Source: an uncultured Oligoflexia bacterium
Lineage (GTDB): Bacteria; Bdellovibrionota; Bacteriovoracia; Bacteriovoracales; Bacteriovoracaceae
Reading direction: 5' to 3'
DNA: 9,483 nt
Assembly: GCA_950060715.1 (NCBI GenBank)
Contig: CATLVA010000035.1
Coordinates: 1-9,483 of the forward strand
How positions within the stretch are numbered: position 1 is the stretch's first letter; every line of letters begins with the position of its first letter. Below, piece by piece: positions 1-9,483 of the stretch. Under the pieces are notes generated by a model. That model had not been told where the DNA came from and ran no database searches. It saw only the letters and a list, made by a program, of their open reading frames with translations. The position numbers were made by a program, and so were the translations under genes.

Positions 1-187
1 TTTCACGAGAGGCATTCGGGTATGTTTGAATCCATTCCAAAATTATTGCTACCGTGACATTTTTATATTTATTTTTTGAGCAAAAGCTTGCAAAGTTTAA
101 AAGTGTTGTGGCCCCTGCCTGAAATTTAAGGCCATAAGCTCTTTTTAATTGAATATACTCCTCAATACCATGTTTTATACTTTTCAT
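1..187 (-). CDS. Second tyrosine recombinase, N-terminal fragment (cut by window edge)
   Basis: The reading frame opens at an ATG (187-185) that overlaps the stop of the upstream recombinase as ATGA, and stays open for 62 codons to the window edge. The protein begins MKSIKHGIEEYIQLKRAYG and continues with a helical stretch (LLNFASFCSKN...). From family knowledge, a 'YLxLRRxLGFK...L..F..F' opening is the SAM-like core-binding domain of tyrosine recombinases that occur as overlapping pairs or trios (RIT elements, NGR234 y4r-type genes). The catalytic domain lies outside the window, so activity cannot be judged. The ATGA overlap implies translational coupling with the gene at 184-1443 and a joint role in site-specific recombination of a mobile element. 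Confidence 0.72.
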   Translation of the reverse strand, partial: MKSIKHGIEEYIQLKRAYGLKFQAGATTLLNFASFCSKNKYKNVTVAIILEWIQTYPNASRE

Positions 188-1443
188 AATTCTTTCCCCC
201 AAGTAGTAGGCCAGGCAAGCGGAACTTGTTTAAGCCTATTCATATCTAGTCTTGTGTAACGCACAGAGGTATTCATTGAGGTATGCCTTAAAAGCTCTGA
301 TACTTCTTGAAGGCTTCCACCCTTATTTAAAATGTTTGATGCGACTGAATACCTTAGTAGTCGTGCTCCTGATATTGGAGGCTTTAAATTACAGCGATCT
401 AATGCATGCCGAACTACTGACGATATTGCTCCAGATTGCTTAAAACGAACGAAAGGCGCTTTGCCACGAATAAAGACTTCTTTATCTTTAGAGCCGGGCC
501 TTGCATATTTGATATATCTTTTTAGCGCCTCCTTAACATCTGATTCTAAAGGTAAGATGGTGCGTTTGCCTTTTCCTTGGATAACTATCTTTTTTTCCTC
601 CCAAAGAATATCTTTCAATTTGAGATTAATAACTTCAATTGGTCGAAATCCATATCTCATTAATAGTATGAGTATTGCAAAATCACGAATTCCAATTGCA
701 TGGTTTAAGTCACAGCACTCAAGCATTTTAACCATCTCATTTTCGGAAATGGTATGAATGACATTTTGATTCCTCCATATTGAAAATTGAGGAACAGCAT
801 AGGAAAGATCAACATTTATTATCCCCTTGCCGTAAAGAAACTTCATGTAACATTTGATAGCACTACCATCGCATCGAAGGGTTCTGTCATTGTGGTGTTT
901 GCCTCGTTCCCTTAAGAAATTTAGAATATCAGTGGCTTGTATTTTTTTAGGATTACAATTTGACTTTGGGAAAGAGAAAGTTAGAAATTGTCTAATCGTT
1001 GTTTTAAAACGAACAATAGATGTATTTGTAAGGCCTCGATCATTTTTCATGTATTTTTCAAAGATGTGAACTTCGCTCTGAATCTTTTTACATCCACGAA
1101 ATCTACTGAGCTTTTTATCTATCAATTTAAGTCGATGCTTTTTCTCAACGATAGAAAGGAAACGATGTAAAGAAAGCCATGACCCATTCTTTATCTTGTG
1201 AGTCTGTTGAGACAGCTTTGTTTTAAAGTCTTGAACATGAGATTTTCTTAGCTTTGTTGGTGTGATCGAATTGTAGGCTGACCACCTGATAAACTTCAAT
1301 ACAATAATAAGTTTTGTTTTGATAGTTGGGATTTGATACCCCTCATTGAAATGCTCAATAGTGAATGTCTCTATTGATGCTGAAAACGGGCTTTGCCGAA
1401 ATTCGTTAATTAGACTCTTGGATGAATAGATTGCTTCAATCAT
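184..1443 (-). CDS. Tyrosine recombinase/integrase, RIT-type first gene
   Basis: A 419-aa site-specific recombinase that would cut and rejoin DNA through a tyrosine 3'-phosphate intermediate. About 120 N-terminal residues form an arm-type domain, residues ~125-215 resemble the SAM-like core-binding domain, and ~230-405 are catalytic. Visible catalytic positions are R267 (YGFRPIEV), K291 (QGKGKRTILPL), R364 (RLLRYS), H387 (LLRHTS) and Y396 (VRYTRLD). The box II histidine of the usual HxxR is replaced by arginine (R361). The tail 'YTRLDMNRLKQVPLAWP' matches the style of recombinases found in overlapping pairs/trios. The ATG at 1443 has a strong SD (GGAGG about 8 nt upstream), and the gene overlaps the next recombinase by 4 nt. 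It is transcribed away from the tandem-HTH regulator at 1820, sharing a 376-nt control region. It could be a transposase of a RIT-like element or the integrase of a larger element. Confidence 0.9.
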   Translation of the reverse strand: MIEAIYSSKSLINEFRQSPFSASIETFTIEHFNEGYQIPTIKTKLIIVLKFIRWSAYNSITPTKLRKSHVQDFKTKLSQQTHKIKNGSWLSLHRFLSIVEKKHRLKLIDKKLSRFRGCKKIQSEVHIFEKYMKNDRGLTNTSIVRFKTTIRQFLTFSFPKSNCNPKKIQATDILNFLRERGKHHNDRTLRCDGSAIKCYMKFLYGKGIINVDLSYAVPQFSIWRNQNVIHTISENEMVKMLECCDLNHAIGIRDFAILILLMRYGFRPIEVINLKLKDILWEEKKIVIQGKGKRTILPLESDVKEALKRYIKYARPGSKDKEVFIRGKAPFVRFKQSGAISSVVRHALDRCNLKPPISGARLLRYSVASNILNKGGSLQEVSELLRHTSMNTSVRYTRLDMNRLKQVPLAWPTTWGKEL

Positions 1444-1502
1444 GATAAAACCTCCACCATTTTTCCTTAGAATTTCTGACCATTATTCAAACAACTACTT
1501 AA

Positions 1503-1520
1503 AATCATTCACGAATGATT
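1503..1520. promoter_or_regulatory. 18-bp palindrome upstream of the recombinase genes
   Basis: AATCATTC-AC-GAATGATT is a perfect 8-bp inverted repeat with a 2-nt centre, 60 nt upstream of the recombinase start. Its size and symmetry fit a dimeric repressor operator; it could also be part of a recombination or binding site. Function is inferred from form and place only. Confidence 0.4.
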
Positions 1521-1543
1521 CCAATATCTTATCGAAAAAAGGG

Positions 1544-1571
1544 CTACGATTTATTTCTCAATATTTCGTAG
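1544..1571. repeat. Inverted repeat CTACGA...TCGTAG
   Basis: Six-base perfect arms (1544-1549 and 1566-1571) flank a 16-nt AT-rich centre. The right arm runs into an AGAATTTC motif (1570-1577) that also precedes the phased repeats of the second control region (8310-8317), and occurs once more at 1469-1476. No T-run follows the repeat, so it is not a typical terminator. Confidence 0.3.
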
Positions 1572-1583
1572 AATTTCAGGCGT

Positions 1584-1612
1584 TGGCTACTTGCTGGCTA
1601 CTTTTTGGCTAC
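1584..1612 (+). repeat. TGGCTAC direct repeats at 11-bp period (locus 1)
   Basis: Three exact TGGCTAC copies start at 1584, 1595 and 1606, exactly 11 bp apart, with a degenerate fourth (TGACCCAC) at 1617. One-helical-turn spacing places all copies on the same face of DNA, as for cooperative regulator sites or iterons. The same motif, preceded by the same AGAATTTC plus 6 nt, is found upstream of the paralogous regulator at 8324-8352. The protein bound is unknown. Confidence 0.6.
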
Positions 1613-1702
1613 ACGCTGACCCACCTTACACTTCTCCTCTTTAACAGCGACCTTTTGGCATCTAAGTCATCCAAATTAATAAGAAAAGTTCACAGCATTG
1701 CG

Positions 1703-1767
1703 CTGGCAGAAAGTGGTTCACACTTTCGAGCGCAAATGTGGCAGCGACTGGCTCATAAGTGGTTCAC
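1703..1767 (+). promoter_or_regulatory. Two bipartite direct-repeat sites, probable operators of the tandem-HTH regulator (locus 1)
   Basis: Two sites have the form CTGGC - spacer - AGTGGTTCAC. Site a: CTGGC 1703-1707, 4-nt spacer, AGTGGTTCAC 1712-1721. Site b: CTGGC 1748-1752, 5-nt spacer, AGTGGTTCAC 1758-1767. A further lone GTTCAC lies at 1688-1693, and extra TGGCA half sites at 1656-1660 and 1740-1743. The sites end 53 nt before the ATG of the regulator, a position that suits autoregulation. The shared CTGGC half recurs with a different partner half at locus 2 (8442-8494). That the adjacent HTH protein binds here is inference. Confidence 0.5.
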
Positions 1768-1778
1768 TTCAGAGAGCC

Positions 1779-1789
1779 TGCCACTGGCA
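1779..1789. repeat. TGCCA-C-TGGCA palindrome
   Basis: An 11-bp palindrome made of two inverted copies of the common TGGCA half site lies 31 nt before the regulator start. The equivalent place at locus 2 (8473-8484, about 31 nt before that start) also holds a palindrome, AGTGC-TG-GCACT, containing CTGGCAC. The conserved position supports a promoter-proximal operator. Confidence 0.4.
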
Positions 1790-1819
1790 CATCAAAGGTC
1801 AGAAAGGAGGATCTAAAAA

Positions 1820-2548
1820 ATGGAAATTATCAAATTACAAAACCCAAACGAAGCAGTGATAAAAAAAACTGTTACAAAAAATAGAGAGAAAGAGAACAAA
1901 CTCAAAAATAAAAAAAGAACAACTATAACCTACTTTAGCAGTCACACTGAGATTTCAAACGACGCAAGTTTTTTAAAGCAACTACGACTAGCTCTTAATC
2001 TAAACAGAACAGAAGCAAGCAACATTCTTGGTATGTCTGTTTCTACAATAAAAAGATATGAAACAGGAATCAGTGAAATTACTACGGATAAGCTAGATTA
2101 CTTTTTGAAGTGTTATTGTGTCAGCCGAATTGAATACATGAGTTTCAAAGCTGGAAAGGAAGTCTCTTTTTCTAAAGAAAAACTCACTCCGAAAGTCAAA
2201 GTCATCGAGAACAACTTACTAAGAAGAAGTTATAAGAAAATTATAACCGAGGAAGTCAGAGCGATCACTCATTTAAGAACCATTAAAGGACTCAATCAAC
2301 AAGAACTTACTACAAAATGTGGTTGGTCTAGAACAGCAATTAGTCATATTGAAAATGGAAGAATTGAACTTACCGAAGAGAAACTTAAGCATATCTTAAA
2401 AGCTCTTGAGGTAACTTTAAAGAAGTTCAAACAGTACCTCGATTCGTCTTTTGACAGAACTTTTATTGAAAAGAAATGTATTAAGAAAATTCTAGATATG
2501 GATAGTTCAAAATTAAAAAGCATAGAAACAATTTTAGAAAACTTTTAA
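1820..2548 (+). CDS. Tandem-HTH (XRE-like) transcriptional regulator, module 1
   Basis: A 242-aa DNA-binding protein with two helix-turn-helix domains. A Lys/Arg-rich N-terminal tail (1-45) leads to HTH1 at about 51-105 (GMSVSTIKRYETG in the turn and recognition helix). A basic linker NLLRRSYKKIITEE (132-145) precedes HTH2 at about 146-207 (CGWSRTAISHIENGRIEL). The tail CIKKIL...KLKSIETILENF follows. The ATG has a strong SD (AGGAGG). Its paralogue at 8515-9156 keeps the linker, HTH2 and tail closely but has a different HTH1. It is followed after 18 nt by a small RHH-like gene, and the same order is repeated at locus 2. It probably autoregulates through the bipartite sites at 1703-1767 and may control mobile-element functions. 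No named family is recognised beyond XRE-like HTH. Confidence 0.85.
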   Translation: MEIIKLQNPNEAVIKKTVTKNREKENKLKNKKRTTITYFSSHTEISNDASFLKQLRLALNLNRTEASNILGMSVSTIKRYETGISEITTDKLDYFLKCYCVSRIEYMSFKAGKEVSFSKEKLTPKVKVIENNLLRRSYKKIITEEVRAITHLRTIKGLNQQELTTKCGWSRTAISHIENGRIELTEEKLKHILKALEVTLKKFKQYLDSSFDRTFIEKKCIKKILDMDSSKLKSIETILENF

Positions 2549-2566
2549 CACCTAACGAAAGGAAGC

Positions 2567-3001
2567 ATGATGGAAAAAGCAAAAAAAACACCAAAAAATA
2601 AAATCGCTAAAGATTCAGATTTAACAAACATAAGAGCAAGAGTGAGCTTTAAAGAAAGCATAAATTCTGAAGTCTCAAAACTTAACAAAAGAAAGAAAGG
2701 GAGCAAGAAAATCATACCAGCGGATATTTTAGAAATTTTACTTCCACTATTAACTGATGAGCATAGAGAGCAACTTTTATCAAAAACTGTAACAGGCTCA
2801 GATCGCAGGAAAAGAGCAAGACAGGGTTACATTAAGAAGCATGGATCTATTAGTGAAATAGCATTTCTTGATCTTATTCAGGACAGAGAGGTGGAACTCG
2901 ACGACTATCTCCCAGAGGAGCTAAAACTACAAAACCTCAAGGGAAAAAAGAGCTTGACCAAAGTTAACAAAAATGTTAACCTTGAGGAGAAATCAGCTTG
3001 A
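2567..3001 (+). CDS. Small basic ribbon-helix-helix-like protein, module 1
   Basis: A 144-aa protein of unrecognised family. After a Lys-rich start, residues ~20-65 follow a ribbon-helix-helix pattern: strand TNIRARVS, helix KESINSEVSKLNK, helix IIPADILEILLPLL. Next come TVTGSDRRKRARQGYIKKHG and an acidic segment ending in a Lys-rich tail. It aligns along most of its length with the partial gene at 9178 (shared IR.., KLNK/KINK, KI..D.L, V/IT..D.R.KR, KK.G..SE). An SD (AAAGGAAG) serves ATG 2567 or ATG 2570. The 18-nt gap to the tandem-HTH gene suggests one operon, and the stop overlaps the TTG start of the toxin gene. It could be a second regulator, a relaxosome accessory protein or a partition-type DNA binder; the sequence does not decide. 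Confidence 0.75.
   Translation: MMEKAKKTPKNKIAKDSDLTNIRARVSFKESINSEVSKLNKRKKGSKKIIPADILEILLPLLTDEHREQLLSKTVTGSDRRKRARQGYIKKHGSISEIAFLDLIQDREVELDDYLPEELKLQNLKGKKSLTKVNKNVNLEEKSA
2954..2996 (+). promoter_or_regulatory. Possible internal promoter/operator and SD of the toxin-antitoxin pair
   Basis: Inside the 3' end of the preceding gene are two GTTAAC palindromes (2963-2968 and 2975-2980) with centres 12 bp apart, flanked as AAAGTTAAC...GTTAACCTT. TTGACC (2954-2959) and TAACCT (2977-2982) with a 17-bp gap could form a weak sigma70 promoter overlapped by the palindromes. HigA-type antitoxins normally repress their own promoter, so this is a candidate operator. The SD GAGGAG (2984-2989) supports the downstream TTG start. 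Confidence 0.4.
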
Positions 3002-3312
3002 AGCAAATAAAACTGTTTCATAACTCTGAGGATATTGTTCCATTTAGTGAGTGGTTTAATAAGCTTTCTATGGCTTCTCAGGCTCGTATAGACGTTTATA
3101 TTAAACGTGTGGCTGCTGGAGGCTCAAAGAACAACATTAAATCTCTCGGAGATGGAGTTTTTGAGATAAAGATTAATTATGGCCCAGGATTCAGGGTCTA
3201 TTTTGGTGAAGTTCAAAACGCTATTATTCTGCTTCTTTTAGGTGGCGATAAGTCGTCTCAAAAAAGAGACATCATAAAAGCAAAAAGTTATTGGAGGCAA
3301 TTCAATGAATAG
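2998..3312 (+). CDS. higB: HigB/RelE-family toxin (type II toxin-antitoxin)
   Basis: A 104-aa RelE/ParE-fold protein of the Gp49-like HigB group, whose known members are ribosome-dependent mRNA interferases. Diagnostic segments are FSEWFNKLSMASQARIDVYI, IKSLGDGVFEIKINYGPGFR, VYFG and the C-terminal LLLLGGDKSSQKRDI followed by the YW motif. The start is TTG at 2998, supported by GAGGAG 8 nt upstream; its TTGA overlaps the stop of the previous gene, so translation may be coupled. The antitoxin follows with an 8-nt overlap, giving the toxin-first order typical of HigBA. In an element like this the pair would act as a stability or phage-defence module. Length and all core motifs look intact. Confidence 0.92.
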   Translation: MKQIKLFHNSEDIVPFSEWFNKLSMASQARIDVYIKRVAAGGSKNNIKSLGDGVFEIKINYGPGFRVYFGEVQNAIILLLLGGDKSSQKRDIIKAKSYWRQFNE

Positions 3313-3601
3313 AACATCTTCTTATGATGAAATGTTATCAAAGCGACTTCAAAATCCTGAGTATGCAAGAGAGTATATTGTTGCATCAATGGAGGGAGAA
3401 GAGGGTCAAACACTGATTAGCGCATTACTTAGTATGATTGAGGTTATGGGTATCAAAGAATATTCAGAACTCGTGAATATGCCTAAGTCTGCTATATCAA
3501 GACTACTTTCCGTTGGTGACATTCCCAAAATAGAAACTCTCAATAAACTTTTAGCTCCTTTTAAGCTCAAGGCAAAACTTGACATAGAAGAAGTGGCTTA
3601 A
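3305..3601 (+). CDS. higA: HigA-type HTH antitoxin
   Basis: A 98-aa antitoxin paired with the toxin gene it overlaps by 8 nt. The N-terminal part (LSKRLQNPEYAREYIVASMEG) matches the toxin-contacting region of the addiction-module antidote family, and ~40-85 is an XRE-like HTH (LLSMIEVMG, YSELVNMPKSAISRLLS, PKIETLNKLLAPF). It should neutralise the toxin by direct binding and repress the operon. The ATG lies within the toxin's 3' end with GGAGG upstream (3293-3297). Its stop TAA overlaps the stop of the convergent acidic-protein gene in a shared TTAA (3598-3601). I see no terminator between the two. Confidence 0.9.
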   Translation: MNRTSSYDEMLSKRLQNPEYAREYIVASMEGEEGQTLISALLSMIEVMGIKEYSELVNMPKSAISRLLSVGDIPKIETLNKLLAPFKLKAKLDIEEVA

Positions 3602-4062
3602 GCTGCTTCTTCTAAATTTAGTTCAACAAATCTCTCAATATCACTCACCCAGTAATCATCACCGTCAACTTCCACAATTTCTCCGTCTGCTCTCAATGAG
3701 TCCATATACTCATCAAGTGCGATCCTGTAAGAGATTGGATCTAGAATCTCAATTGCTGACATCATGTCATACTCAATCCAACCAATCTTTACAGTTTCTT
3801 CGTAACAAGATGTTAGAGATTCCTTTGCGTATTCATCATCAATAGGTGCACAATTCTCAGATACTAAATGTTCAATGACCCACTCTATACCGTATTCAAC
3901 CCCAACACCATCAAGTAGCCTCATATTGTCATCTGAGCTGCAACTTGAGCAGTTTTTCTCTTTCACTTCTTTGCAACAGGAGTAGCAAAACGGCTTTGAT
4001 TTTCGATACGCAACAGTTACAAGGTTTTCATAAGTTTTTTGATCTAGTGTTTCAGTTAACAT
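3598..4062 (-). CDS. Small, strongly acidic protein with Cys4 zinc-ribbon-like motif, function unknown
   Basis: A 154-aa protein. I chose the ATG at 4062 because AAAGGAG lies just upstream; an in-frame ATG at 4134 would add 24 residues without an SD. Residues 26-41 carry CYSCC and CSSC, a CxxC-x8-CxxC spacing suited to one zinc ion. The rest holds EYGIEWVIEHLVSENC, a helical middle and an acidic C-terminus (VEVDGDDYWVSDIERFVELNLEE). By count there are about 36 Asp/Glu against 13 Lys/Arg. Proteins of this kind seem familiar from conjugative elements, but I cannot name the family. The charge would fit a DNA-mimic such as an anti-restriction protein; that is inference from composition and mobile context only. 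It is convergent with the antitoxin gene and has its own upstream region. Confidence 0.75.
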   Translation of the reverse strand: MLTETLDQKTYENLVTVAYRKSKPFCYSCCKEVKEKNCSSCSSDDNMRLLDGVGVEYGIEWVIEHLVSENCAPIDDEYAKESLTSCYEETVKIGWIEYDMMSAIEILDPISYRIALDEYMDSLRADGEIVEVDGDDYWVSDIERFVELNLEEAA

Positions 4063-4096
4063 TTTCTTCTCCTTTAAGTTTTTAATGCCTCTTAGG

Positions 4097-4127
4097 GCGA
4101 AATAAACGAGGAGCGAAGTAGAGCGAA
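4097..4127. repeat. Three GCGAA direct repeats upstream of the acidic-protein gene
   Basis: GCGAA occurs at 4097-4101, 4113-4117 and 4123-4127; the last two sit in a 10-bp tandem (GAGCGAAGTA, GAGCGAAAAT). They lie 35-65 nt upstream of the minus-strand start at 4062, where a regulator site could be. The repeats are short and may be chance. Confidence 0.25.
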
Positions 4128-4143
4128 AATCCACAAAAAAGTT

Positions 4144-4166
4144 GGGGGAAACCTTTAGGGGGAACC
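4144..4166. repeat. GGGGGAAACC / GGGGGAACC direct repeat
   Basis: Two near-identical G-run motifs at 4144-4153 and 4158-4166, starts 14 bp apart, stand out in AT-rich DNA. They lie 80-105 nt upstream of the acidic-protein start and could belong to its control region. No known site is recognised. Confidence 0.3.
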
Positions 4167-4370
4167 GACTGTTTTTGTTGATTTTTTAGCGATCGAAGCG
4201 GACGATAAATGGAGCCTAGAGCTTTTTAAAAAATGTTTAGGAGTAAAGGTTAATTATAGATTTAAGCTTCAAGCCTTGTCGTTTCAAAATATATATCTTA
4301 TTTGACACTTTTAATTATTTGATGAGTATTATTTTCTCACATTTGATTGTGGATTCCCTACTGAGCAATT

Positions 4371-4408
4371 AAAAAAACCTTGGGCCAGTAATAGCGACTC
4401 AGCCCAAG
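4371..4408 (-). terminator. Rho-independent terminator of the copZ-like gene
   Basis: Read on the minus strand, CTTGGGC pairs with GCCCAAG around a 16-nt loop (with a further AGT/ACT pairing possible inside it), then a run of seven T follows after GG. It sits 74 nt beyond the stop of the minus-strand copper-chaperone gene. The plus-strand side has no equal T-run, so termination is mainly leftward. Confidence 0.8.
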
Positions 4409-4481
4409 TTTAAGACGTAGTTTTTCCTATTAGGATAAGATAAATCGGTCTAATCAGCAGCTAAAATTGAAAAAATTGGCT

Positions 4482-4679
4482 TTAAGCAGTTTTAAACTCA
4501 TATCCTGCGACTTCAATGGTTTTTTTTATTGCATCTTGATCGAGTGTGGATTTCACATACAGTTCGGACTTTTCTATATTACCATCCACTTCAGCAGAGC
4601 TGTCCTTTTCTTGTAATGCTTCTTTGATAGCTTTTACGCAGCTCATGCAATGCAAGTCTTTCATCTCAAATGTATACAC
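4482..4679 (-). CDS. copZ: CopZ-like HMA copper chaperone
   Basis: A 65-aa single heavy-metal-associated domain (HMA fold), the usual size for free copper chaperones. The metal site is CMSC (C11, C14) in the first loop, reading LHCMSCVKAI instead of the more common GMxCxxC. The C-terminal part (AGYEF) is typical of the fold. It should bind Cu(I) in the cytoplasm and pass it to the divergent CopA and its sensor. The start is GTG at 4679, chosen because AGGAG lies 6 nt upstream; the next Met (residue 6) has no SD. It is transcribed from its own promoter with a MerR-type operator (4710-4740) and ends in the hairpin at 4371-4408. Confidence 0.87.
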   Translation of the reverse strand: MYTFEMKDLHCMSCVKAIKEALQEKDSSAEVDGNIEKSELYVKSTLDQDAIKKTIEVAGYEFKTA

Positions 4680-4709
4680 TTTTTTCTCCTTTGTTAGTTC
4701 TAGAATATA

Positions 4710-4740
4710 AATATGAGGTCTCCCCCGGGGGAAGGGTCAA
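4710..4740 (-). promoter_or_regulatory. CueR-type promoter/operator of the copZ-like gene
   Basis: On the minus strand, TTGACC (4740-4735) is followed after 19 bp by CATATT (4715-4710). The spacer is an imperfect GC-rich dyad centred on CCCCC/GGGGG (4722-4731). A 19-bp spacer that needs DNA distortion by the activator is the mark of MerR-family promoters. The -35 boxes of this promoter and of the copA promoter form an inverted repeat (GGGTCAA...TTGACCC, 4734-4754). Confidence 0.75.
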
Positions 4741-4748
4741 GAAAAAAT

Positions 4749-4779
4749 TTGACCCTCCCCTTGGGGGAGGGTCTATGCT
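4749..4779 (+). promoter_or_regulatory. CueR-type promoter/operator of the copA operon
   Basis: TTGACC (4749-4754), a spacer of exactly 19 bp, and TATGCT (4774-4779). Between and overlapping them is a perfect palindrome (4751-4773) with 10-bp arms GACCCTCCCC and GGGGAGGGTC around TTG. This matches the known design of CueR sites (inverted CCTTCC-type arms in an over-long spacer). The leader to the ATG at 4801 would be short, about 15 nt, and includes the SD AAAGGAG. Confidence 0.85.
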
Positions 4780-4800
4780 ATATTCAAAGGAGTGGAAAAT

Positions 4801-6981
4801 ATGGAAACAATTGATGTAAATATCCACGGCATGACATGTGCTTCATGTGTTGGAAGAATAGAAAAAAAATTAAAATCAAATAAGTCAGTATCCAGCGTAA
4901 GCGTAAACTTAGCCACTGAGATGGGTAAGATTGAATTTGATGATACACAAGTCAAAACAAAAGATATAATTGGGCTAATTGAAGAAGCTGGTTATAAAGC
5001 TAGTGCTCAAACTGAGTCACGTGACAACAAAATCAATGACCTAAAAAAAGAAAAGAGAATTTTAATTATTTCCTCTATTCTCACCCTTCCGTTGGTTATA
5101 CCAATGCTTCTGATGCCCTTTGGTATCAACTATAATTTAAATCCTTGGATTCAGATGGCTCTGGCTACCCCCGTTCAATTCATAATTGGGTTTCGTTTTT
5201 ACAAGGCGGCTTGGTCAGCTGTTAAAAACAAAAGTGGAAACATGGAGCTTCTGGTGGCTATTGGTACAAGTGCTGCTTATTTTCTAAGTCTATACATTGT
5301 TTACCAGCACATAGATCACCTGAATCATCACATGCATCTGTATTTTGAAAGTTCAGCGGTGATCATTACCTTGATTCTTTTAGGAAAATACATGGAGTCT
5401 CGCGCAAAAATGCAAACGACTGAAGCCATCAGAGCGCTTCAAGATCTTAAGCCAGAGACTGCGTTAGTGAAAATCAATGGATCTCAAGAAATAAAATCAA
5501 TAGATGAAATCCAAGTTGGGCAAATTGTAATAGTTAAGGCCGGTGAAAGAGTTCCTCTTGATGGAATCATTTCTAGTGGAGAAACAGAGATTGATGAATC
5601 TATGATTACTGGCGAGAGTATTCCAGTTTCCAAAAAAGTTGGTGATAAAGTTGTTGGTGGATCTATTAACGCTGATGGACTGATTGAGGTAGAAGTTAAG
5701 TCAGTCGGCGCTGAGACAGTGCTTTCAAAAATAATTAGACTTGTTGAAGATGCTCAAGCAGAGAAAGCTCCCATACAAAGAATGGTGGATAAAGTGAGTT
5801 ATTACTTTGTACCTATAGTTGTTTTAATAGCTTTAGCTACAGTGGCAGTGACTTTCCTCTTAACTAATGATCTTGAAGCTTCAATACTCAACGCTGTTGC
5901 AGTTTTGGTCATTGCTTGTCCTTGTGCTCTCGGTTTAGCAACCCCAACTTCCATTATGGTTGGCACTGGGCAGGCTGCAAAAAACGGTATACTTATCAAA
6001 AATGCAGAAGCATTAGAGCTTGCCCACTCCATTGATGCAGTTGCGTTTGATAAAACAGGAACCTTGACTGAAGGTAAACCTGTGTTGAGCAAAATTGAGT
6101 ATTACAAGAGTAATCAAGCTCTAGTAGATAAGGTTTTACTAAGCATACAGTCCAATAGCGAACACCCATTGGGTGCAGCACTTGTTAAACACATGAAAGA
6201 TAAGAATACTACACTGGTAAATACTGAAAATACTAAGACAATTAGAGGTAAAGGTATCCAAGCAGAAGTTGAAGGCAATACCTATCTCATTGCAAGTAAA
6301 AAAGCACTCACTTCTGAACCGCAAGAAGAAAGCGTTGAAACCTTCATCACAGAAAGAGAAGATATAGGTGAAACTGTTTCAGTGCTCATTGACGTAAATC
6401 AAAATAAAGTACTTTCGGCATTCAGCTTCATAGATAAAGTTAAGCCTACTGCACAACAAACTGTCGATGAACTAAAAAAACTTGGTGTCAAACCAGTTTT
6501 GATCTCGGGAGACAACAAAGGAAGCGTCGAAAAAGTAGCTGGAGAACTTGGAATCACTGAGTTTTACTATGAAGTGCTTCCAGAAGAAAAATCAGACATT
6601 ATTAAGAAGCTTAAAACGAAGCACAAAATTGTTTCAATGGTCGGAGATGGTGTTAACGATGCTCCAGCTTTGGCTCTTAGTGACGTCGGTTTTGCTATGG
6701 CAACGGGCACTGATGTGGCAATGCATAGTGCTGAGGTCACTCTAATGCGCGGAAACCCTCTGCTCATTCCAGATGCGATTTCTGTTTCAAATGCTACTTA
6801 CAAAAAAATAAAGCAAAATCTTTTTTGGGCTTTTTTCTACAATGTCGTAGGCATACCTTTAGCTGCGGCAGGTCTTCTCAATCCTATGATTGCTGGTGGA
6901 GCTATGGCCCTAAGTTCTGTGAGTGTATTAGCAAACTCACTACTTCTAAAAAGGTGGACTGCTAAGTCAGGAGTTAATTAA
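4801..6981 (+). CDS. copA: Cu(I)-exporting P1B-1-type ATPase CopA
   Basis: A 726-aa inner-membrane ATPase that pumps Cu(I)/Ag(I) out of the cytoplasm. One N-terminal HMA domain has GMTCASC (C13, C16). The actuator motif is TGES (270-273) and the transmembrane metal site is CPC (373-375), followed by ALGLATP. The phosphorylation site is DKTGT (D417), the nucleotide-binding HP motif is SEHPLG (H455-P456), and the hinge is GDGVNDAP (615-622). YN in TM7 (680-681) and MxxSS in TM8 (703-707) are the P1B-1 copper signature. A His-rich periplasmic loop between early TM helices (H170, H173, H176, H177, H179) may receive or release metal. ATG 4801 is preferred over GTG 4792 because AGGAG (4788-4792) lies 8 nt before it. 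First gene of a copper operon; its TAA overlaps the cueR ATG by one base. Confidence 0.97.
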   Translation: METIDVNIHGMTCASCVGRIEKKLKSNKSVSSVSVNLATEMGKIEFDDTQVKTKDIIGLIEEAGYKASAQTESRDNKINDLKKEKRILIISSILTLPLVIPMLLMPFGINYNLNPWIQMALATPVQFIIGFRFYKAAWSAVKNKSGNMELLVAIGTSAAYFLSLYIVYQHIDHLNHHMHLYFESSAVIITLILLGKYMESRAKMQTTEAIRALQDLKPETALVKINGSQEIKSIDEIQVGQIVIVKAGERVPLDGIISSGETEIDESMITGESIPVSKKVGDKVVGGSINADGLIEVEVKSVGAETVLSKIIRLVEDAQAEKAPIQRMVDKVSYYFVPIVVLIALATVAVTFLLTNDLEASILNAVAVLVIACPCALGLATPTSIMVGTGQAAKNGILIKNAEALELAHSIDAVAFDKTGTLTEGKPVLSKIEYYKSNQALVDKVLLSIQSNSEHPLGAALVKHMKDKNTTLVNTENTKTIRGKGIQAEVEGNTYLIASKKALTSEPQEESVETFITEREDIGETVSVLIDVNQNKVLSAFSFIDKVKPTAQQTVDELKKLGVKPVLISGDNKGSVEKVAGELGITEFYYEVLPEEKSDIIKKLKTKHKIVSMVGDGVNDAPALALSDVGFAMATGTDVAMHSAEVTLMRGNPLLIPDAISVSNATYKKIKQNLFWAFFYNVVGIPLAAAGLLNPMIAGGAMALSSVSVLANSLLLKRWTAKSGVN

Positions 6982-7385
6982 TGAATATAGGGGAAGCATC
7001 TAAACTCAGTGGTATATCGGTTAAAATGATTCGCAAATATGAAGACTCAGGAATTATTCCCAAGGCACGTAGGAATGAATCTGGCTACCGTAGCTATTCT
7101 GAAAAAGATGTTCACACGCTTAAATTTGTTAAAACAAGTAGATCTTTAGGTTTTTCAATGAAGGACATTAAAGAGCTTTTAAGTCTCTGGAAAAATACGA
7201 GTAGAACTAGTGCGAATGTGAAAAGGATTGCCGAAAAACACGTTGAAAGCCTTGAGCAAAAAGTGGATGAAATTAACATGATGCTAAAAACTCTGAAACA
7301 CCTAACTAAGAACTGCCACGGTGATAACAGGCCTAACTGTCCTATACTAAGCAATTTGAGTGGTGAACAGGATAAAGGCTTATGA
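6981..7385 (+). CDS. cueR: MerR-family Cu(I) sensor CueR
   Basis: A 134-aa activator. An N-terminal winged HTH (MNIGEASKLSGISVKMIRKYE, then GYRSYSEKDV) is followed by a dimerisation coiled coil (~75-110) and a metal loop. Ligand cysteines C112 and C120 (CHGDNRPNC) and S77 stand at the same residue numbers as in E. coli CueR; Ser rather than Cys at 77 is the known mark of a monovalent-metal (Cu(I)/Ag(I)/Au(I)) sensor. It should remodel the two 19-bp-spacer promoters at 4710-4779 and so activate both copZ and its own operon. The start overlaps the copA stop (TAATG), with CAGGAG upstream; the stop overlaps the next gene as ATGA. Being inside copA's operon gives positive feedback. Confidence 0.95.
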   Translation: MNIGEASKLSGISVKMIRKYEDSGIIPKARRNESGYRSYSEKDVHTLKFVKTSRSLGFSMKDIKELLSLWKNTSRTSANVKRIAEKHVESLEQKVDEINMMLKTLKHLTKNCHGDNRPNCPILSNLSGEQDKGL

Positions 7386-7735
7386 TTTTTGTATTGAAGG
7401 TAGTGTTTGCGTCGGTAGTTATTAGCTCACTTTCATGGCTCTCTGGAAAAAAGCCAGAGTTTGCAGGCTTTTTAACAGCACTTCCACTCACTTCTCTCCT
7501 TGCTCTGGCCTTCTCGCAACTTGAGTGGCAAGACAGCTCAAGGTCAGTGGATTATGCTAAAAGTATCTTTGTGGCTATTCCGCTAAGCTCACTGTTTTTT
7601 GTACCTTTTTTATTTGCTCATAGATTTGGCCTTTCTTTTTGGCAAACCTATGCATCTGGAGTGGTATTTCTTTCAATTGGATTTTTTCTCCATAAATATT
7701 CAATGATTCTATTATCTTATAGTGATGGAGTCTGA
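7382..7735 (+). CDS. DUF3147-like small inner-membrane protein
   Basis: A 117-aa membrane protein with about four hydrophobic segments (roughly 2-20, 27-46, 60-79, 86-105). The segment GKKPEFAGFLTALPLTSLLA and the later IPLSSLFFVPFLF resemble the DUF3147 family, for which I know no established function. The ATG overlaps the cueR stop as ATGA, and the next gene begins one base after its stop, so it is a fixed part of the copper operon and should be induced by copper. No Cys or Met cluster for metal binding is visible. A role in metal transport or membrane protection is inference. Confidence 0.8.
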   Translation: MIFVLKVVFASVVISSLSWLSGKKPEFAGFLTALPLTSLLALAFSQLEWQDSSRSVDYAKSIFVAIPLSSLFFVPFLFAHRFGLSFWQTYASGVVFLSIGFFLHKYSMILLSYSDGV

Positions 7736-7736
7736 C

Positions 7737-8255
7737 ATGGAAAAATTCAACTTAACGTCACAAATGTCCGATTTAATAAGAGTATGCACGTCATCAGGCC
7801 TTTTGACCAAAAACCCAAACAAGTGGTACCCTAAACACATGTCAAAGCCTTTTGCTTCGTTTTTTATTATCATTTCACTTGTGTCTGTTCAGGCTTTTGG
7901 TCTTGTATGTGAAACAAAGTGTAGTCTAAATGAAGCAGGTGTAGAATCAAATATGTCTCAAGATGTTTCGCACTCCGATTGCCATTCAAACAGTGAAGAA
8001 GAATCAAATGATTCAGACTCTGAGGAGTGCAACAAGGTTTGTGCCGTAGATGAGATTTTTACCGACATTAAAACGTTAAATGTAGAAGCCCATTCAAAAC
8101 AAGCTGTGGTTTTCACAGACTTGAATAAATACTTATCTCTGAGTAGCGACCTTAAGGAAACACCAATTAGATCCATTTCTGATCCACCATTTTTCGGGAT
8201 TAAAAAAGCAAAATTTGGAAGACTACTTGTTAAGACATTGATTTTAAAACACTAA
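7737..8255 (+). CDS. Exported Cys/acid-rich protein of the copper operon, function unknown
   Basis: A 172-aa protein of no recognised family. I place the start at ATG 7737, one base after the previous stop, with GGAG (7727-7730) upstream. A better signal peptide would start at Met35 (ATG 7839): SKP, then hydrophobic 39-57, with a possible cleavage after AFG; no good SD is seen there, so the start is uncertain. The mature part has cysteines C58, C62, C82, C98 and C102, an HSDCH motif (79-83) and an acidic Ser/Glu/Asp-rich stretch (84-99), all suited to metal binding. It ends in a basic segment (IKKAKFGRLLVKTLILKH). Last gene of the copper operon; likely a periplasmic or membrane-anchored metal-binding protein, by inference. 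No terminator is visible after it. Confidence 0.72.
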   Translation: MEKFNLTSQMSDLIRVCTSSGLLTKNPNKWYPKHMSKPFASFFIIISLVSVQAFGLVCETKCSLNEAGVESNMSQDVSHSDCHSNSEEESNDSDSEECNKVCAVDEIFTDIKTLNVEAHSKQAVVFTDLNKYLSLSSDLKETPIRSISDPPFFGIKKAKFGRLLVKTLILKH

Positions 8256-8323
8256 TGGATTCAAGTAGTTACTTCCAATTCTTCAGTTTAAAATTTCAGA
8301 ACATTTCTAAGAATTTCTCCCAT

Positions 8324-8352
8324 TGGCTACCTATGGCTACTTCTGTGGCTCC
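8324..8352 (+). repeat. Phased TGGCTAC direct repeats (locus 2)
   Basis: TGGCTAC at 8324-8330 and 8334-8340, and TGGCTCC at 8346-8352, at steps of 10 and 12 bp, again about one helical turn. AGAATTTC (8310-8317) precedes the first copy at exactly the same 6-nt distance as at locus 1 (1570-1577). They lie 163-191 nt upstream of the second tandem-HTH gene. The conservation between two otherwise diverged control regions argues for a real binding array. Confidence 0.58.
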
Positions 8353-8354
8353 CT

Positions 8355-8389
8355 GATTAGCAGGCACTTTTTCCGAATTCAAATTAGCA
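8355..8389 (+). repeat. Two upstream TTAGCA half sites (locus 2)
   Basis: GATTAGCA (8355-8362) and AATTAGCA (8382-8389) repeat the private half site of this locus that recurs in the bipartite sites nearer the gene (8451-8494). Each is followed by a CACTTT-like stretch. They may be extra operator half sites. Confidence 0.4.
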
Positions 8390-8441
8390 CTTTCTAAGTC
8401 GCAATCCATTTAAATCACTAACAATTTTTGTCGGCGTAACA

Positions 8442-8494
8442 CTGGCAGAAGTTGCTAATTTTTAGCCAGTGAAGTGCTGGCACTGATTAGCAAC
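8442..8494. promoter_or_regulatory. Bipartite sites, probable operators of the tandem-HTH regulator (locus 2)
   Basis: Site c, minus strand: CTGGC (8469-8465), 5-nt spacer, ATTAGCAAC (8459-8451). Site d, plus strand: CTGGC (8477-8481), 4-nt spacer, ATTAGCAAC (8486-8494). The two are head to head with 7 nt between, so the whole is an inverted array with outer arms GTTGCTAAT and ATTAGCAAC. A third CTGGC (8442-8446) with AGAA, as at locus 1, abuts the left arm. The array ends 20 nt before the ATG, so it covers or follows the promoter and suits autorepression. Binding by the adjacent HTH protein is inference. Confidence 0.5.
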
Positions 8495-8514
8495 ATTTAA
8501 CAAATGGAGGCTTT

Positions 8515-9156
8515 ATGGAAGCACAGAATTTAAGGAGATCACAAAAGAAAGTGATTACTAATGAGGTAACTGCTCTCAAGAAAATGAGGGAAATGAAAGG
8601 ACTGAGCCGCAAAGACGCGGCCCCTCTCGTTGGCGTAACTTTTAAGCTAATTGAACAACTTGAAAATGGCAGAGTCGAACTAACAAAGCAGAAAATTGCA
8701 CAATACTGTTTAGCTTATGGCTTCACCCAAAATCAGTATCGTGACATTTGTGAAGGAAAAATCGGCAAAGTTCAAAAAGAGATTTGCAAAGTTCGCACTA
8801 AGGTTATTGAACAAAACAATCTTAGAAGAAGTTACAAAAAAATTATCACAAAAGAAGCAAAGGTACTTCAAGTTTTGAGAAGGTTAAAAAACCTAACTCA
8901 ATATGATGCAAGTATTCTTTGTGGCTATAGCAAGACTGCTATTGGTCACATTGAAAATGGACGTATTGAAATACCAAATAGCCGAATAAAGTTTATTGTG
9001 GAGTCCTATGGTTTCACGATGAATGACTTTGAATATCACATGAAATCAGAAAAATTTGTCACTGATATTCAAGACGATTGTATCAAAATTATCAAAGGAC
9101 TTGGTGAAGAAAAACTAAAAGCCGTTTACCCACTATTATCAACTTTTAAGAACTAA
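8515..9156 (+). CDS. Tandem-HTH (XRE-like) transcriptional regulator, module 2
   Basis: A 213-aa paralogue of the protein at 1820-2548 with two HTH domains. HTH1 is at about 17-77 (GVTFKLIEQLENGRVEL) and HTH2 at about 112-176 (CGYSKTAIGHIENGRIEI). Each domain is preceded by the same basic lead, NLRRSQKKVITNE at 5-17 and NLRRSYKKIITKE at 102-114, so the protein is an internal tandem duplication. The tail CIKIIKGLGEEKLKAVYPLL matches that of module 1. HTH2 and its lead are close to module 1; HTH1 is not. It lacks the 45-residue Lys-rich N-terminal tail of module 1. The ATG has a clear SD (GGAGG, 8506-8510). The RHH-like partner starts 21 nt downstream. Probably a dimeric, autoregulating DNA-binding protein; target genes beyond itself are unknown. 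Confidence 0.85.
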   Translation: MEAQNLRRSQKKVITNEVTALKKMREMKGLSRKDAAPLVGVTFKLIEQLENGRVELTKQKIAQYCLAYGFTQNQYRDICEGKIGKVQKEICKVRTKVIEQNNLRRSYKKIITKEAKVLQVLRRLKNLTQYDASILCGYSKTAIGHIENGRIEIPNSRIKFIVESYGFTMNDFEYHMKSEKFVTDIQDDCIKIIKGLGEEKLKAVYPLLSTFKN

Positions 9157-9177
9157 TAAACATTAAGGAGAACACCA

Positions 9178-9483
9178 ATGAAAACAGCTAATGAAAATTC
9201 AAAAACAAAAAATAATGACTACACTTCTATTAGAGTTAAAGGAGATACTAAAAATAATGTTAATAAATTTTTGGATAAAATTAACAAAACTGAAGACTGT
9301 GGAAAAATTACTTTCGATGCTCTTGTCAGCTATTTTTTAGAAAATGTAACTCAAGAGGATATTGAAAATCTTCAAAAAGGGGCCATCACTTGGGCACATG
9401 AAGATAAGAGACTAAAACGCCTTTGGGAAAAAAAGAAAGGCAAAGTCTCAGAAAATAAATGGAAGGAAATGCTCTATATCGGT
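9178..9483 (+). CDS. RHH-like protein, module 2 (partial, cut by window edge)
   Basis: The frame opens at ATG 9178 with AAGGAG upstream and stays open for 102 codons to the window end. Residues 14-60 fit a ribbon-helix-helix plan: strand DYTSIRVKG, helix TKNNVNKFLDKIN, helix ITFDALVSYFLENV. Then follow ITWAHEDKRLKRLWEKKKG and KVSENKWKEML. It aligns over most of the visible length with the gene at 2567-3001 and has the same place directly after a tandem-HTH gene. The C-terminus is missing. Role as for module 1: a DNA-binding partner or accessory protein, function unknown. Confidence 0.75.
   Translation, partial: MKTANENSKTKNNDYTSIRVKGDTKNNVNKFLDKINKTEDCGKITFDALVSYFLENVTQEDIENLQKGAITWAHEDKRLKRLWEKKKGKVSENKWKEMLYIG

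Follow-up and report, generated by a model that had tools for sequence, protein, structure and literature searches.

How two paralogous regulators encoded on one stretch of DNA come to read different sites is the question raised by a 9,483-nt contig of an uncultured Oligoflexia bacterium of the Bacteriovoracaceae (CATLVA010000035.1, positions 1 to 9,483, assembly GCA_950060715.1), the whole of which is called the window here. Two of its genes, gene 1 and gene 2, each encode a protein with two helix-turn-helix (HTH) domains, HTH1 and HTH2, and each is preceded by sites in which the word CTGGC, shared by both loci, is joined to a second word private to the locus. The words, their positions, their genomic setting and the covariation of the private word with the protein are shown below. 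As we read them, each gene is probably the resident autoregulator (an immunity-type repressor) of a family resembling integrative conjugative elements (ICEs), with HTH1 reading the private word and HTH2 the shared one. The genes and their upstream sites are as follows:

1616..1625, plus strand: CTGACCCACC, candidate first copy of gene 1's private word, seen by eye only and missed by the automatic search
1703..1721, plus strand: CTGGC-N4-AGTGGTTCAC, composite site of gene 1
1748..1767, plus strand: CTGGC-N5-AGTGGTTCAC, composite site of gene 1
1820..2548, plus strand: gene 1, tandem-HTH regulator of 242 aa, with two HTH_3 stretches (E 2e-20)
8356..8362, plus strand: ATTAGCA, private-word copy P1 of gene 2
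8383..8389, plus strand: ATTAGCA, private-word copy P2 of gene 2
8442..8459, plus strand: CTGGC-N4-GTTGCTAAT (CTGGC-agaa-GTTGCTAAT), composite site of gene 2
8451..8469, minus strand: CTGGC-N5-ATTAGCAAC, composite site of gene 2
8477..8494, plus strand: CTGGC-N4-ATTAGCAAC, composite site of gene 2
8515..9156, plus strand: gene 2, tandem-HTH regulator of 213 aa (Pfam profiles and AlphaFold2 model)

Profile comparison places both genes in a tandem-HTH (XRE) family of Bdellovibrionota, with PF01381 (HTH_3) matching two stretches in each protein (72.8 and 54.2 bits against a cut-off of 23). The description of HTH2 as nearly identical and HTH1 as divergent in the initial annotation was borne out, the helices of the two proteins being identical at 9 of 11 positions in HTH2 and at 2 of 9 in HTH1. 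In the gene 1 protein, the HTH1 helix lies at about residues 73-79 and HTH2 at about 149-204, and in the AlphaFold2 model of gene 2 (mean pLDDT, the predicted local distance difference score, 87.4; pTM, the predicted template modelling score, 0.52) the predicted recognition helices span residues 43-50 for HTH1 and 142-147 for HTH2. In a weak match (E 0.02), K44 and E47 of gene 2 correspond to residues 29 and 32 in the 434 repressor, which contact bases. An identity as MqsA antitoxin was considered and rejected: gene 1 passes PF15731 (35.7 versus 30) by its HTH part alone (profile positions 59-108 of 131), gene 2 fails it (25), TIGR03830 stays under its cut-off for both, and the toxin in the neighborhood of gene 1 is of the RelE/ParE type, not MqsR.

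Four of the composite sites had been reported before, and all four are present exactly at the coordinates and strands listed above. The site at 8442 had been overlooked; it corresponds to the first site of gene 1, which reads in full CTGGC-agaa-AGTGGTTCAC. Two CTGGC-N4/5 sites with an identical 10-mer arose in 0 of 5000 dinucleotide shuffles of the region before gene 1 (1444-1819), and two such sites with an identical 9-mer in 0 of 5000 before gene 2 (8256-8514). By itself, CTGGC shows no enrichment in the window, with 15 copies against an expectation of 10.2. The private word of gene 2 also forms a direct repeat farther upstream (8356 and 8383), and a related word, CTGACCCACC at 1616, occupies the place equivalent to P1 of relatives, where the locus L095 has CTGACCTACC.

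That the second half is private to its locus held in the nearest genome examined (G001; 3.9 Mb, containing 90% of the window's sampled 31-mers): CTGGC-N4/5-AGTGGTTCAC occurs there twice, both times at gene 1, and CTGGC-N4/5-ATTAGCA twice, both times at gene 2. As a reversed control of the latter pattern was also found twice, its count is not above chance and its clustering alone is telling. The 4/5-nt spacer described as common is indeed present at both loci, but the private half seemingly runs opposite ways relative to CTGGC in the gene-1 and gene-2 sites, so that the spacer is no proof of one arrangement. A divergent family member in the same genome (G001:C43, locus L046) has matches confined to the HTH2 half.

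The private word and HTH1

The family is present in 71 of 289 genomes around G001 and, under a stricter cut-off, in 66 of 368 genomes of the phylum, an overlapping set. For comparison across loci, 90 upstream regions were anchored on an HTH1 codon and two that were too short were dropped, which left 88. Words were collected as 5-mers directly repeated 14-33 nt apart within a fixed zone; the protein played no part in this, and words containing TGGC or GGCT were excluded by design. Private words had first been called by eye, before the automatic calling, and the class labels used below are those of the eye-seen words.

The private half had been expected to covary with HTH1, and it does. With the rest of the protein and HTH2 removed, similarity of the HTH1 recognition helix correlates with similarity of the word sets (partial r 0.188, 0 of 2000 permutations), and no such association was obtained for the HTH2 helix over the same regions (partial r -0.012, p 0.62). 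The three best of 201 alignment columns, in gene-2 numbering, are E47, R53 and K44 over all pairs, E47, K44 and R53 over pairs below 50% identity, and K44, E47 and R53 over pairs below 40%. When the loci were thinned to less than 60% identity (about 41 loci), K44 and E47 had median ranks of 4 and 1.5 among 209 columns, and after thinning to less than 50% (about 27 loci) 6.5 and 7 among 206; the best of the seven HTH2-helix columns ranked 25.5, 15 and 26 after thinning at 60, 50 and 45%.

A private-word class could be assigned at 56 of the 88 loci, and the classes follow positions 44 and 47 closely. All six GTACC loci carry E44 with K47 and all 32 TAGCA loci carry K, Q or R at 44 with E47; TAGCC goes with K and G at seven of eight loci (K and Q at the eighth), TTAGC with K and G at five of six (S and K at the sixth), and TCGCA with K and E at four of four. 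At L058, a separate change from E47 to Q occurs together with TAGCC amid TAGCA and GTACC relatives. Written predictions for 14 loci proved right at nine (L108, L109, L124, L128, L072, L147, L052, L066 with two words allowed, and L156), partly right at two (L084 and L111) and wrong at three. As a hold-out test this is weak, because the upstream DNA of L036, L072, L084 and part of L066 had been seen before the predictions and close relatives of L108, L128 and L147 were in the first set. Taken from these sequence comparisons, the proposal that HTH1 would read the private half is well supported.

The shared word, joined sites and the tRNA

A tRNA gene lies on the same strand within 900 bp at 57 of the 88 upstream regions (37 Ala(ggc), 14 Gly(gcc), 4 Cys, 1 Ala(tgc) and 1 Val), and the shared word differs between the two main groups. 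CTGGC is found in the leader of 32 of the 37 tRNA-Ala(ggc) loci and of 2 of the 14 tRNA-Gly loci; 5 of the former group and 13 of the latter have one or more copies of CTTGC. This contrast is tracked best by columns S106, K113, R157 and Y107, which lie around the linker and HTH2, followed by H145 in the HTH2 helix; K44 and E47 stand near the bottom, at ranks 198 and 196.

At some loci the two words are also joined. Among the 39 loci with both a class and CTGGC in the leader, 17 have their own private word 2-8 nt from CTGGC, where mononucleotide shuffles expect 0.06, and words of other classes are found at this distance in 0 of 122 locus-word trials. In the clade with the other HTH2, CTTGC-TAGCA composites occur in six of seven loci (0.0 in shuffles), with L003, L005 and L006, and L077, L080, L125 and L128, being close relatives; thus, where HTH2 differs, one and the same private word has another shared word as its partner. 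That HTH2 reads the shared half is suggested by these patterns. Of the division of labor originally proposed, the HTH1 part is carried by covariation, whereas the part that assigns CTGGC to HTH2 depends mainly on one deep contrast, that between CTGGC and CTTGC loci.

The leader site GAGCGnnACGCTGGCAG (L088-L107 and others) resembles the D-stem and anticodon 5' half of the adjacent tRNA-Ala(GGC), and the tRNA-Gly loci have CTTGC, as tRNA-Gly(GCC) itself does; the Cys, Val and Ala(tgc) loci are exceptions. When each leader is matched to its own tRNA, the best match at the 37 tRNA-Ala(ggc) loci averages 9.9, against 7.6 for shuffled leaders, 7.9 for other tRNA types and 9.1 for a neighboring control stretch, the last being inflated where it overlaps the tRNA itself; the best match ends at tRNA positions 28-50 in 30 of 37. 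At the 14 tRNA-Gly loci it averages 8.9 (shuffled 7.6, control 9.9) and ends at positions 28-50 in 5, and at the Cys (4), Val (1) and Ala(tgc) (1) loci the own-tRNA match averages no better than shuffles. CTGGC is carried by three of the four Cys loci, the Ala(tgc) locus and the Val locus. That the shared word copies its target tRNA was, on these numbers, rejected as a general rule. It is improbable, in our estimate, that the shared word is the anticodon-arm DNA of the target tRNA (CTGGC for tRNA-Ala-GGC, CTTGC for tRNA-Gly-GCC), with HTH1 recognizing the element and HTH2 of the same chain the chromosomal target gene, each evolving independently; if true, it would amount to an address code that gives both the home of an ICE and its identity.

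The mobile-element setting

The remaining features of the window bear on the kind of DNA to which the two regulators belong:

2-202: start part of a second recombinase-like frame, without a Pfam match, grouped with recombinases via its similarity to L009
184..1443, minus strand: tyrosine recombinase of a neighboring element (PF00589, E 4e-21)
1454..1459, plus strand: CCACCA, tRNA-3'-end-like junction at the start of the gene-1 module, with a tRNA-Ala at the equivalent place in the relative L085/L095
1584..1612, plus strand: three TGGCTAC repeats at 11-bp spacing on the gene-1 side, perhaps recombinase arm-type sites
2567..3001, plus strand: gene adjoining gene 1, without an assigned family (cluster 5, with relatives at other loci) and without a Pfam family above cut-off
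2998..3601, plus strand: RelE/ParE-type toxin (2998-3312; TIGR02683 above cut-off) and probable HTH antitoxin (3305-3601; PF21716 under cut-off)
8184..8189, plus strand: CCACCA, tRNA-3'-end-like junction at the start of the gene-2 module, from the alignment with L017
8324..8352, plus strand: TGGCTAC, TGGCTAC and TGGCTCC repeats on the gene-2 side, perhaps recombinase arm-type sites
9178..9483, plus strand: start part of the gene adjoining gene 2, without an assigned family (cluster 2)

On the plus strand of the window, CCACCA is found only at 1454 and 8184, with four more copies on the minus strand. The gene-2 module aligns along its length with L017 (90% mean column identity over four sequences), in which the homologous stretch begins right after the CCACCA of a tRNA-Ala. 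The junctions at 1454 and 8184 mark the starts of two tandem modules. The unit between them contains only the regulator module, the toxin-antitoxin pair and copper genes; no type IV transfer ATPase, coupling protein or relaxase genes were found among its proteins, and by its gene content it is a remnant or non-autonomous unit. Its copper cargo (4482-8255) comprises a small HMA protein, a heavy-metal P-type ATPase and CueR (above cut-off), along with one open reading frame whose C-terminus reads through the tRNA-like junction at 8184. On the minus strand, 3598-4062 encodes a 154-aa protein without an assigned family (cluster 1), relatives of which occur near these regulators in 11 of 27 stretches, some of them from overlapping records. 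As to the neighboring element, a RIT (recombinases in trio) would have three overlapping tyrosine recombinase genes, of which one whole gene and the start of a second lie before the window edge.

More complete relatives were found elsewhere. In 12 genomes with 21 near-full-length regulator loci, eight loci have a same-strand tyrosine integrase downstream, at a distance of 26 kb in G110:C10 and of 33-44 kb in the remaining seven; 10 of the 13 others lie on contigs that end within 20 kb, and no integrase was found in 34 kb or more downstream at G035:C81, G061:C1 and the tRNA-Gly locus of G083:C24. Three elements read through from regulator to integrase (G276, G001:C111 and G099; 33-43 kb) all carry a TraC-type ATPase, a coupling protein and an integrase, with a relaxase in the first two, no relaxase being in the set of G099 proteins tested. 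From this gene content they look like ICEs. The transfer genes of these three elements (L165-L172) are F-type-like, and the G099 element carries a resistance-nodulation-division (RND) efflux gene. The tRNA end is repeated behind the integrase over 14 bp in G276, where a second regulator module follows immediately, and over 13 bp in G099; behind the integrase of G001:C111 only TCCACCAT was found, no longer than chance matches in that stretch. Repeats of the tRNA 3' end of at least 12 bp were absent from downstream stretches of 12-19 kb, except for one 13-bp match in L099, to sequence behind a tRNA-Cys. Past the attachment (att) core behind the G099 integrase, L168 has TTTGGCCA-type words and CACCGTACCCC, as if it were the remnant of another element with a different private-word class. 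In Micavibrio, another predator, islands have been assigned to the ICEs, four of nine lying beside tRNA genes (PMC3189940).

A search of the three elements (124 kb) for composites with the element's own word gave three matches, each of them in a regulator gene's leader; they are spread over two of the elements, and the G099 element is without any. About 2.4 matches are expected by chance in this length, so that their position is telling and their number is not. This leader-only placement fits a wide regulon, or a factor at work at both element ends, less well than it does an autoregulator or immunity repressor.

Proposed function, alternatives and known systems

The elements would use the 3' ends of Bdellovibrionota tRNA genes as insertion sites and encode one chain with two 434-like HTH domains. 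HTH1 would read the element-private word, mainly via the residues equivalent to gene-2 K44 and E47, and HTH2, together with the basic linker RRSYKK, the lineage-shared word (CTGGC, or CTTGC in another clade). The joined sites (shared word, about 6 nt, private word) precede the regulator's own gene; the protein may bind and repress there, and divergence of the private word may decide which elements ignore each other. The claim of the initial annotation that the code insulates co-resident paralogues was not borne out statistically: 8 of 30 within-genome pairs share a word; their word similarity is 0.068, against 0.085 in identity-matched pairs, and on this comparison selected avoidance of shared words was rejected. 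Insulation may be seen as a natural consequence of a two-word code, one that finds no statistical support here.

Several observations weigh against this two-word reading. As a block, the nine HTH1-helix columns are unexceptional, with 22, 15 and 25 of 193 equally long blocks being as good by mean rank, and the signal therefore sits in a few positions. The TCGCA loci retain K44 and E47, so other positions must matter; 32 of the 88 loci yield no private-word class, and the predictions missed were those for L143, L144 and L036. The class changed only about seven times on the tree (22.7 when shuffled), which means few independent events, and after thinning to less than 45% identity (about 24 loci) K44 and E47 drop to median ranks of 8 and 14 among 206. 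On the shared side, the link to HTH2 is mainly one deep split with few evolutionary events, L147 has CTAGC though its HTH2 helix is unchanged, and at 22 of the 39 class-assigned loci with CTGGC the own word is absent from the 2-8 nt range around it. Finally, of the 11 regulator loci whose contigs run on downstream for more than 20 kb, 3 show no integrase there.

The protein could instead be mainly a recombination accessory or directionality factor that binds P1 and P2 next to the att core to govern integration or excision, with promoter control as a secondary role. P1 and P2 do lie between the att-like core and the gene, right behind the arm-like repeats, and gene 2 matches the Xer recombination activation factor family (E 2e-4, well under cut-off). 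However, what recurs as single copies just inside the far att of the three elements is the arm-like words (GCCTAGAG; TGGCTA with ATTTCT; TTTGCT with ATTTCT; counted without a chance control), whereas composites stand only before the regulator gene, in two of them. We regard this role as unlikely. Less probable still is that upstream DNA and HTH1 were simply co-inherited, neither reading the other. The strong clustering of class on the tree and the unexceptional helix block would agree with such an artefact, but the top three columns fall in the HTH1 recognition helix or just behind it, the HTH2 helix is without association, K44 and E47 stay near the top after thinning, composites join a locus to its own word and never to those of other classes, and L058 changed separately. 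Action of the repeats at the RNA level, as leader hairpins or an attenuator with the protein incidental, is very improbable: in the leader sequence of gene 2, as in those of its relatives, the composites make up nested inverted repeats, but P1 and P2 are direct repeats far upstream and the word varies with HTH1 residues.

The two-word repressor proposed here has partial likenesses among known systems. Both 434-type repressors and the controller C proteins of restriction-modification systems share with these regulators the HTH_3 fold and operators by their own gene, and profile matches include C.BclI (E 2e-5) and the 434 repressor (E 0.007). They and ICE repressors such as SetR and ImmR are single-HTH XRE autoregulators of mobile DNA, unlike this family with its two HTH per chain and separately varying words. 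AraC/MarA-type activators read two adjacent half sites with two HTH motifs in one chain; they do not appear in the list of 50 PDB matches to the model, most of which are XRE-type domains and none of which reaches an E of 0.001. Among phage regulators, phrog_8 (PHROG 8) covers both HTH domains of gene 1 (E 1.5e-18), and the match to Wmk (NCBIfam) is far under cut-off. In the Pseudomonas putida Xre-RES repressor complex, several XRE HTH domains likewise act jointly on an own-promoter inverted repeat, but these come from four Xre chains with the RES toxin, and the accessible part of the report mentions no two-word code (PMC12204516). In the MerR family, as here, recognition-helix residues covary with operator bases, and the part of that study at hand, which cites a LacI recognition code, mentions no tandem HTH chain (PMC5045206). 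In the open-licence papers searched, no description of this family or of a separable two-word code in tandem XRE domains was found.

The family would be a natural one in which two HTH domains per chain read separately evolving words, and it would offer a testable recognition code, in which, for example, K44E with E47K would shift TAGCA towards TACCC. Such a code would define specificity groups within an ICE-like family of predatory bacteria.

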